Shown here: piece after piece, positions 30,402 through 33,031 of the stretch
Position numbering within the stretch: the first letter of the stretch is position 1
How the letters are laid out: each line of letters begins with the position of its first letter
Notes under the pieces: generated by a model
Databases searched by the model: none
What the model saw: only the letters and a program-made list of their open reading frames with translations
What the model was told of the DNA's origin: nothing
Program-made: the position numbers and the translations under genes
Origin: Thermobifida alba
Lineage (GTDB): Bacteria; Actinomycetota; Actinomycetes; Streptosporangiales; Streptosporangiaceae
NCBI RefSeq assembly: GCF_023208015.1
Contig: NZ_CP051627.1
Location: 1,736,001-1,800,000, forward strand
Direction: 5' to 3'
Length of the DNA stretch: 64,000 nucleotides

Positions 30402-30510
30402 CCAGGCGGCCCCGCCCGTCCGGCAGGGTTCAACCCCGCCGAAGACGGGAACTTCTCAGCCCTAACACTCGTCTTCACCGATACCCGGTTCACCATCGAA
30501 GAGAGAGGCA

Positions 30511-30633
30511 ATGGACCCGTCCCGAAGTAGCAGCAGCGTCCACAGACGCTGCTCCTCCGACTCCGACGACCCCCACTCACCAGGCCACGCGCCCACCGGC
30601 CCCCGCTGTGACTCCGAGGCGGTGCGTGCGTGA
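30511..30633 (+). CDS. Candidate 40-residue leader peptide upstream of corC
   Basis: ATG 30511 follows a purine-rich GAGAGAGG (30501-30508) and the 40-codon frame ends in TGA at 30631-30633, overlapping the GTG (30630) and ATG (30633) of the CorC gene. The peptide starts MDPSRSSSSV and is rich in Ser, Asp, His, Pro and has two Cys, with no membrane segment. It contains a perfect hairpin (30532-30553). The strong ribosome site and stop/start overlap argue that it is translated and that CorC translation depends on it. Metal-sensing or Mg-responsive ribosome stalling is a hypothesis only; a chance frame cannot be excluded. Confidence 0.5.
   Translation: MDPSRSSSSVHRRCSSDSDDPHSPGHAPTGPRCDSEAVRA
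30532..30553 (+). promoter_or_regulatory. 9-bp hairpin inside the leader ORF
   Basis: AGCAGCGTC, loop CACA, GACGCTGCT. Perfect stem within codons 8-14 of the leader; not followed by a T-run, so probably a regulatory RNA fold and not a terminator. Confidence 0.5.
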
Positions 30634-32012
30634 TGAGCGTCGTCCTCACCATCCTCCTCGGAGTCCTGGTGGTCTTCCTGATCACCGCGGTCACCGGCTA
30701 CTTCGTCGCCCAGGAGTTCGGCTTCGTCGCCGTTGACCGCTCCCGTCTCAAAGCCCGCGCCGCCGCCGGGGACGCCACGGCCCAGCGCGCCCTCGACATC
30801 ACCGCCCGCACCTCCTTCATGCTGTCGGGCGCCCAGCTCGGCATCACCGTCACCGGCCTGCTCGTCGGCTACGTCGCCGAACCCATGATCGGATCGGGCA
30901 TCGGCGAACTCCTCGGCGGCGTCGGCGTCCCCGCCGGCACCGGGGTCGCCGTCGGCACCGTCGCGGCCCTGCTGCTCTCCACCGTCGTGCAGATGGTCTT
31001 CGGCGAACTGTTCCCCAAGAACCTCGCCATCGCCCGCCCCGAACCCGTCGCCCGCCGACTGGCCCTGTCCACCCGCGCCTACCTGCGCGTGTTCGGCTGG
31101 CTCATCTGGCTGTTCGACCGGGCGTCCATCCTGCTGCTCAAGGCGGTGCGCATCACCCCGGTGGAGGACGTGCAGCACGCCGCCACCCCGCGCGACCTGG
31201 AACGCATCGTCGAGGAGTCCCGCGACAGCGGCGACCTGCCCGCGGAACTGTCCACCCTGCTGGACCGCACCCTGGACTTCCACGAGCGCACCGCCGAGCA
31301 CGCGATGATCCCGCGCCCCCAGGTGACCCTCGTCGAGGCCGACGACCCGGTCAGCCGCGTCGTGGAACTCATGACCACCACCGGCCACTCCCGCTTCCCG
31401 GTCCTCACCGGCGTCGAGACCGTCACCGGGGTGGTCTGCCTGCGCGACGTCCTCGCGCTGGACGAGGAGCGGCTGTCCACCGCCCGCGTGGCCGACATCG
31501 CCCGCGAGGCCGTGCTGGTCCCCACCTCGCTCCCGCTGTCGACACTGGTGACGCGGCTGCACGAGGCGAACGAGCAGTTCGCCTGCGTCGTCGACGAGTA
31601 CGGCGGCCTGGCCGGACTCGTCACCACCGAGGACATCGCCGAGGAACTCGTCGGCGAGATCGCCGACGAACACGACCCCGAGGACGAGTCGCAGGCCCGC
31701 GTCATCGAGGACGGCGACTGGCTGCTGCCCGGCGCCCTCCACGTCGACGAGGTCGAACGCCTCCTCGGACACGACCTGCCCGCGGGCGACTACGAGACCA
31801 TCGGCGGCCTCGTCATCACCCACCTGCGCCGCCTGCCCCGCCCCGCCGACCGGATCACCGTCGAACTGCCCCGCCACCCCGGGGCCGACGACGACGAACC
31901 CGACTGGGTCGTCAACCTCGTCGTGGAGGCCGTGGACCGCCACGTTCCCGAAACCGTCCGCCTGGAACTGCGCGAGACCCCCCACGGCAGCCGGACGGAG
32001 GTGACCGCGTGA
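30630..32012 (+). CDS. CNNM/CorC (HlyC) family membrane protein 1
   Basis: 460 residues from GTG 30630 (GAGG ten bases upstream); ATG 30633 is the alternative. DUF21/CNNM membrane domain about 1-190 with the GYFVAQEFGFVAVDRSRL helix, SGAQLGITVTGLLVGY and GELFPKNLAI motifs; two CBS domains about 205-330 (MIPRPQVTLVEADD, SRFPVL, VVDEYGGLAGLVTTEDI); C-terminal CorC_HlyC domain with LPGALHVDEVERLLG and DYETIGGLVI. Bacterial members export Mg2+ or Na+-coupled Mg2+ and sense nucleotide through CBS. A second, shorter paralogue overlaps its stop, so the two may form a heterodimer. Confidence 0.92.
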   Translation: MMSVVLTILLGVLVVFLITAVTGYFVAQEFGFVAVDRSRLKARAAAGDATAQRALDITARTSFMLSGAQLGITVTGLLVGYVAEPMIGSGIGELLGGVGVPAGTGVAVGTVAALLLSTVVQMVFGELFPKNLAIARPEPVARRLALSTRAYLRVFGWLIWLFDRASILLLKAVRITPVEDVQHAATPRDLERIVEESRDSGDLPAELSTLLDRTLDFHERTAEHAMIPRPQVTLVEADDPVSRVVELMTTTGHSRFPVLTGVETVTGVVCLRDVLALDEERLSTARVADIAREAVLVPTSLPLSTLVTRLHEANEQFACVVDEYGGLAGLVTTEDIAEELVGEIADEHDPEDESQARVIEDGDWLLPGALHVDEVERLLGHDLPAGDYETIGGLVITHLRRLPRPADRITVELPRHPGADDDEPDWVVNLVVEAVDRHVPETVRLELRETPHGSRTEVTA

Positions 32013-33031
32013 GCGAGCTGAACCCGCTGCTGGCGCTGGCCCTGTCGGTGCTCATCATCGGCCTGTCGGCGTTCTTCGTCGCCGTCGAGTTCGCCCTGGT
32101 GGCCGCCCGCCGCTACCGGCTGGAGGAGGCCGCCGAGACCAGCCTCTCGGCGCGCGCGGCGCTGCGCAGCGCCCGCGACCTGTCCCTGCTGCTGGCCGGC
32201 TCCCAGCTGGGCATCACCCTGTGCACCCTGGCGCTGGGGGCCATCACCAAGCCGGCCGTGCACGACCTCATCGAGCCGCTGTTCCACGGCTGGCTGCCCG
32301 ACGCGGTCTCCTACACCGTCTCGTTCGTGGTGGCCCTGGTGATCGTCACCTTCTTCCACCTCGTCATCGGCGAGATGGCGCCCAAGTCCTGGGCCATCTC
32401 CCACCCGGAGAAGTCGGCGATCCTGCTGGCCCTGCCCATGCGCGCGTTCATGTGGTTCACCCGGCCCGCGCTCGTCGCGCTCAACGGCATGGCCAACTGG
32501 TTCCTGCACCGCCTGGGGGTGGAGGCCGTCGACGAGGTCGCCTCCGGCCACAGCCCCGAGGACCTGCGGGAACTCGTCGAGCACTCCGCCAAGGCCGGAG
32601 CCCTGGACCCCGAGCGGCGCGCGCAACTGGCCACCGCCCTGGAGGTCAACTCCCGGCCGCTGCGCGAGATCATCACTCCCCGGGAGGAGTTCGCGCAGGT
32701 CACCGCGGACGCCGACGTGGCGGCCATCCGCAGGGTCGCCGTGGAGAGCGGGCACCTGCGCCTGGTGGTCGGCGACGACGAACCCTTCGGGGTGCTGCAC
32801 GTCCGCGACACCTTCACCAGCAAACCCGGCACCACCGCCGCCGACCTCATGCGGCCGGTGCTGACCCTGGACGCCACCACGCCCATCTACGCGGCGCTGA
32901 GCATCATGCGGGAGAGCCGCACCCACCTGGCCCTGGTGGAGGAGGACGAGGAACTGGTCGGCCTGGTCACCATGCAGGACATGCTGGACCGGCTGCTGCT
33001 GGCCGAGGTCGCCGAGCCCGGCGCGCGCTGA
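32009..33031 (+). CDS. CNNM/CorC family membrane protein 2
   Basis: 340 residues; GTG 32009 overlaps the stop of the first CNNM gene (GTGA). Same DUF21 core (VEFALVAARRYRLEE, GSQLGITLCTLALGAITKP, GEMAPKSWAISHPEK) and a CBS pair at about 215-330 ending in TMQDMLDRLL, but it lacks the C-terminal CorC_HlyC domain present in its partner. Such unequal tandem pairs are common in actinobacteria and suggest a heteromeric Mg2+ transporter in which only one chain has the regulatory tail. Confidence 0.9.
   Translation: MSELNPLLALALSVLIIGLSAFFVAVEFALVAARRYRLEEAAETSLSARAALRSARDLSLLLAGSQLGITLCTLALGAITKPAVHDLIEPLFHGWLPDAVSYTVSFVVALVIVTFFHLVIGEMAPKSWAISHPEKSAILLALPMRAFMWFTRPALVALNGMANWFLHRLGVEAVDEVASGHSPEDLRELVEHSAKAGALDPERRAQLATALEVNSRPLREIITPREEFAQVTADADVAAIRRVAVESGHLRLVVGDDEPFGVLHVRDTFTSKPGTTAADLMRPVLTLDATTPIYAALSIMRESRTHLALVEEDEELVGLVTMQDMLDRLLLAEVAEPGAR

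Follow-up and report, generated by a model that had tools for sequence, protein, structure and literature searches.

A conserved leader reading frame overlapping the start of a CNNM/CorC gene in Thermobifida alba and other actinomycetes, and its possible part in magnesium-dependent expression

The window, the whole 64-kb stretch of Thermobifida alba DNA that was analysed, contains a corC-like gene followed by a second CNNM-CBS gene and preceded by a short leader ORF (uORF) and a predicted promoter (Table 1; positions are those of the window). The PDB relatives of the corC-like protein include 7m1t and 7m1u ('hemolysin, contains CBS domains'), 4hg0 and 7cfk (a CBS-domain chain); these relatives and the Pfam domains place it in the CNNM/CorC family, with a CNNM transmembrane domain and a CBS pair. 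Export of Mg2+ by the corC product is putative and follows from family membership. The two CNNM genes overlap stop to start (30630–33031), so the leader may control both.

Table 1. Features of the corC leader region and the two downstream genes.
Feature	Position	Strand	Basis or remarks
Predicted ECF-sigma promoter, GGAAC (30448–30452)-N17-CGTC (30470–30473)	30448–30473	+	consensus match
Shine-Dalgarno (SD) sequence of the leader ORF, AGAGAGAGG	30500–30508	+	sequence; GAGAGG-type site kept in homologues
Leader ORF (uORF)	30511–30633	+	ATG start, 40 codons, peptide MDPSRSSSSVHRRCSSDSDDPHSPGHAPTGPRCDSEAVRA, TGA 30631–30633
Codons CGA AGT, start of the AG[AT]-[AC]C element just 5' of H1	30523–30528	+	unchanged in 37/37 leaders
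Hairpin H1, perfect 9 bp, AGCAGCGTC(CACA)GACGCTGCT, inside the leader ORF	30532–30553	+	30532–30540 paired with 30545–30553; MFE fold; compensatory changes
Acidic-proline motif D-S-D-D-P-H-S-P, codons 17–24, candidate ribosome-destabilising stretch	30559–30582	+	conservation of the motif [DE][DE]P[PH]S
Hairpin H2, 30586–30598 (CACGCGCCCACCG) with 30620–30632 (CGGTGCGTGCGTG)	30586–30632	+	12/13 pairs
corC-like CNNM protein (CNNM + CBS + CorC_HlyC)	30630–32012	+	Pfam PF01595, PF00571, PF03471
Second CNNM-CBS protein	32009–33031	+	Pfam PF01595, PF00571; start overlaps end of the first

The ATG of the leader ORF is preceded by GAGAGAGG, and the spacing between the SD sequence and this ATG is only 2 nt. 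The stop codon overlaps the corC start, which can be read as GTG at 30630 or ATG at 30633 (junction GTGATGAGC). The original prediction had described an SD-led ORF of 40 codons that ends at the corC start and holds a perfect 9-bp hairpin, and both were confirmed, the TGA lying within the corC start and the hairpin being present in the MFE fold. The peptide had also been called rich in Asp, Pro, His and Cys; counted by eye it contains 10 Ser, 5 Asp, 5 Pro, 5 Arg, 3 His, 2 Cys and 1 Glu, so that Asp and Pro are notable, but His and Cys are modest and Ser is actually the most abundant.

Relatives of corC were gathered at the levels of genus, family and class and from named genomes of actinomycetes, giving 154 non-redundant actinomycete loci with a recognisable corC N-terminus; the nearest named relatives belong to Nocardiopsis and its allies. 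A uORF was scored when an SD-led ORF with 10 or more codons had a stop overlapping a corC start codon, with shuffled upstream DNA as the null. Such an ORF was found in 128/154 loci, against a shuffle mean of 8.5 and maximum of 15 (counts that ignore kinship), and under a stricter SD rule in 118/154 against 7.2. Some of the loci scored as lacking a uORF (L055, L058) plainly possess one by eye. Across the window, taken as background, 3/44 genes had any overlapping SD-led short ORF, corC among them; the ORFs of the other two genes are short and lie at internal starts. The uORF start codon swaps among ATG, GTG and TTG between genera in flanks that are nearly invariant, as expected of a translated start. 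The leader thus has its own ribosome-binding site (RBS) and a stop/start overlap, and is kept across relatives, which makes a leader ORF with coupling to corC very likely from the sequences compared. Many leaders of the Corynebacteriales (L068–L120: Gordonia, Rhodococcus, Prescottella, Nocardia and Tsukamurella) open strongly basic, with runs of Arg/Lys in place of MDP, as in MRRAKRRKRRR (Gordonia) and MKRASRKHRKP.

Selection at the level of the peptide was assessed in 37 leaders. Single-base codon differences in the uORF frame were synonymous in 1398 and non-synonymous in 510 cases (kinship ignored), as compared with 104:1767 and 225:1519 in the shifted frames of the same leaders. Conservation of the frame in relatives, proposed as a check of the original prediction, was therefore observed both in the number of loci and in this synonymous drift. 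Within [DE][DE]P[PH]S the amino acids persist despite drift at third positions, and D and E replace one another freely. Dipeptides of an acidic residue and Pro numbered 173 in the Nocardiopsaceae-type leaders (shuffled mean 78, maximum 105) and 47 in the remaining clades (mean 27, maximum 42), in each case above all 500 peptide shuffles; several clades (L055, L058 and L100) have a weak acidic-proline content. Amino-acid-level conservation of acidic residues and prolines within about 30 codons of the start is thus a property of the Nocardiopsaceae-type leaders and is weaker elsewhere; in the T. alba leader both D2-P3 and D17-S-D-D-P-H-S-P fall inside this range. Since the leaders of several clades are weakly acidic or else strongly basic, the ancestral role may have been something other than intrinsic ribosome destabilisation (IRD).

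A simpler possibility is that the uORF is a mere coupling or reinitiation device that raises or sets corC translation, its peptide sensing nothing. No feature of the loci is more general than the stop/start overlap, the leader peptides differ widely between clades, and leader genes near a gene start have been proposed to boost translation by reinitiation (PMC4833913). On the other hand, the acidic-proline motif is kept at the amino-acid level despite synonymous drift, and the conserved H1 and AGU-ACC element described below would be superfluous for reinitiation alone. We regard this explanation as rather unlikely.

The strongest nucleotide constraint in the leader lies just ahead of H1, where CGA AGT is without a synonymous change in all 37 leaders. 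The codons GAC CCG TCC CGA AGT barely vary in the Nocardiopsaceae and several Pseudonocardiales. The Streptosporangiaceae leaders read VS-x-x-D-P-W-S-T-x-P-C and retain AGT in 32/33. In T. alba the codon after CGA AGT is AGC and not ACC. With all clades taken together, 87/128 uORFs have the pattern AG[AT]-[AC]C in frame; the two other frames have it in 2 and 0, and shuffles give 4.6. A stem begins at most 8 nt after it, with a mean length of 7.2 bp versus 4.2 bp, and reaches at least 7 bp in 60/87. Confinement to one frame ties the element to translation. Its role might, as a guess, be a pause of the ribosome on meeting H1, when the nascent chain is only 4–6 residues long. The constraint on CGA AGT is not accounted for by IRD, and IRD needs no AGU-ACC element. 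H1 itself showed 11 cells with double compensatory changes in an alignment of 33 relatives, a number reached by 0/500 shuffles, and one of its pairs changes from GC to AU in 9 of these sequences. In the loci L128–L193, the in-frame AGT/AGA and ACC/CCC codons are invariant just before a hairpin of varying sequence.

These features would also suit a leader that is mainly an RNA element, in which AGU-ACC and the hairpin bind a ligand, a protein or the pausing ribosome and so control initiation or elongation on the uORF. The in-frame excess of the pattern, the length of the stems after it and the lack of synonymous change at CGA AGT all favour such an element, as does a hairpin whose sequence changes while its position is kept. 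Against it stands the restriction of AGU-ACC to the translated frame. Also, Rfam searches of the window region found nothing up to E=1, and those of 15 homologous loci nothing at the gathering threshold, so that the leader matches no curated riboswitch or RNA-leader family such as M-box or yybP-ykoY. A larger aptamer with a helix P2 (CGTC/GACG), suggested by RNAalifold, was rejected, as D-to-E exchanges break the pair in 7/37 leaders without compensation. We consider this second alternative quite unlikely. Within the T. alba genome, GACCCGTCCCGAAGTA has an exact match at the leader locus only; elsewhere in this genome the motif has just two sites with 2 mismatches, equal to the two found with a reversed-pattern control. 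One of the two IMG/VR contigs with the 17-mer carries it in an adenylosuccinate-synthetase-like phage ORF and was set aside as a chance match.

A second hairpin, H2, masks the GTG start of corC and stops one base short of the ATG. In 22 Nocardiopsaceae relatives, 96% of the cells of its 11-bp core are paired; in 11 Nocardiopsis-type relatives, where the core lies at a different position, the figure is 99%. For H1 and H2 together, the paired cells are far above those of slid versions, and the covariation score does not clearly beat a shuffle of 3' letters in either of the two Nocardiopsaceae alignments. Pairing of H2 exceeded that of shuffles in the Nocardiopsaceae and some other clades and was not above chance in the Streptosporangiaceae. 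H2 as a universal feature was therefore dropped, being weak or absent outside these clades. The mean accessibility of the corC RBS, compared with that in shuffled uORFs, gave too weak a signal to be used, as GC-rich shuffles pair too. Overall, the alignments suggest that coupling by overlap is a general feature of actinomycete corC leaders and sequestration of the start a feature of clades.

Upstream of the uORF, the pattern GGAA[CTA][ACT]-N14-18-CGT[ATC] was found in 102/128 loci (shuffle mean 1.35, maximum 5), 20–80 nt ahead and in most loci 30–40 nt from the uORF start codon; a sigma70-like site was sought in the same region of T. alba and none was present. The original prediction presupposed a transcript that begins upstream of 30511, and the predicted promoter places the start there, at about 30480–30484. 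Between the stop codon of a SpoU methylase gene and the predicted -35 lies a GC-rich inverted repeat, CCCGTCCGGC...GCCGAAGACGGG (30415–30449), and in relatives GGTTCAA or GATTCAA recurs about 20 nt before the -35. The elements resemble actinobacterial sigmaE and sigmaH promoters: the consensuses of Corynebacterium glutamicum sigmaE and sigmaH are GGAAC-cGTT and GGAAT-GTT (PMC10012870), and the -35 of Streptomyces coelicolor sigmaE matches GGAACTT (PMC10771440). The conserved ECF-type promoter counts against Mg2+ as the main trigger, in that it suggests envelope or oxidative stress as a possible primary signal. That corC is governed chiefly at this promoter by an ECF sigma factor responding to cell-envelope or thiol-oxidative stress, with the uORF just setting the level of translation, is nevertheless very unlikely, as it leaves the conservation within the uORF unexplained, and promoter control is compatible with a leader mechanism rather than exclusive of it.

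The proposal that a leader ORF controls corC is supported by its class-wide conservation, the stop/start overlap, the compensatory changes in H1 and the acidic-proline motif kept at the peptide level. In E. coli and Salmonella, early acidic residues and prolines destabilise ribosomes, most strongly within about the first 30 codons and the more so at low Mg2+, and MgtL and MgtQ exploit this to read Mg2+ (PMC11282234, PMC8092293). CorC proteins guard against an excess of Mg2+, and Salmonella CorC and MgpA are induced by high Mg2+ (PMC12421838). By analogy, the leader ORF would be the first on an ECF-sigma transcript, and ribosomes that complete it would terminate on the corC start, melt H2 where present and reinitiate on corC. 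The acidic-proline codons and the internal H1 would make elongation risky. At low Mg2+ the ribosomes would drop off, H2 would close and the exporter would not be made; with ample Mg2+ the uORF would be read through and the exporter produced. Because coupling is by stop/start overlap, drop-off at low Mg2+ should turn corC off; for an exporter this direction would make sense, and it is contrary to that of MgtL. For Salmonella CorC and MgpA, too, such a polarity is suggested. The overlap points to translational coupling rather than to Rho-dependent termination of transcription. The anatomy of leader and coupling is well supported, and we infer from it the strength of coupling, the drop-off of ribosomes, Mg2+ as the signal and the polarity. 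Sensing of Mg2+ by IRD is somewhat less than an even proposition; the sequences suggest that an MgtL-like mechanism is compatible with the leaders and favoured in the Nocardiopsaceae. We give the complete scheme, in which a conserved leader ORF on an ECF-sigma transcript gates corC by coupling and IRD at low Mg2+ shuts off the exporter, a little short of even chances. Its widest form, a leader peptide that switches a Mg2+ exporter through ribosome stability across the actinomycetes, in reverse of MgtL and with AGU-ACC and the hairpin setting a pause site, we hold to be doubtful.

Enterobacterial precedents exist: MgtL, MgtQ and CorL are uncoupled or intergenic, and YoaL overlaps its gene. The leader of mgtA in Salmonella and E. 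coli, MgtL, is likewise a short ORF, carries Asp/Glu and Pro codons early on and precedes a Mg2+ transport gene, and it forms alternative structures, as does the corC leader. It differs in acting by Rho-dependent transcription termination of an importer, drop-off turning the gene on, whereas the corC leader has a stop that overlaps the gene start, precedes a putative exporter and should turn the gene off upon drop-off. MgtQ, the uORF between mgtC and mgtB of Salmonella, is similar in being short and in having acidic codons that govern a stem which inhibits translation at the RBS of the next gene; it has 8 codons, lies within an operon and promotes an importer at low Mg2+, and no stop/start overlap is mentioned in the description consulted. 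CorL, ahead of corA in E. coli and Salmonella, is again a short ORF located 5' in a Mg2+ transporter gene's leader, with a Mg2+-dependent effect on expression, but is Rho-dependent, has few acidic or Pro codons, and its translation is inverse to expression of the gene. The YoaL-MgpA/YoaE pair of Salmonella and E. coli also has an overlapping leader, before a CorC-domain protein with a protective role against excess Mg2+, and less of this protein is present when the leader start is lost, the polarity proposed for corC; the host phylum is different and a TerC domain takes the place of CNNM. We know of no leader sequence shared between YoaL and the actinomycete corC leader. E. coli CorC (YbeX) has an acidic, ribosome-destabilising start and the polarity expected of a high-Mg2+ gene; its IRD resides in the N-terminus of the protein itself rather than in a separate leader ORF, and the protein is a cytoplasmic CBS-CorC protein and not a CNNM membrane protein. 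A start-to-stop change in YoaL reduces MgpA (PMC12421838). The expectation that such a device before an exporter family would be new has precedents in YoaL/MgpA and in the IRD at the CorC (YbeX) N-terminus (PMC12421838), and so holds only in part; no description of an actinomycete corC leader was found in the open-access literature searched.

For actinomycetes, mycobacteria and antibiotic producers among them, little is known of the way in which intracellular Mg2+ is sensed so that its uptake is restricted or its export promoted. The leader, present in most of the corC loci examined, offers one testable regulatory element in these organisms. It suggests that the use of ribosome destabilisation to sense Mg2+ either evolved or persisted outside the enterobacteria, and would link this use to an exporter with the opposite logic. 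Through the leader region a CNNM gene is also connected with a conserved ECF-sigma-like promoter, whose recurrence ahead of the leader (102/128; L002–L193) implies a link of the CNNM proteins to a stress regulon.
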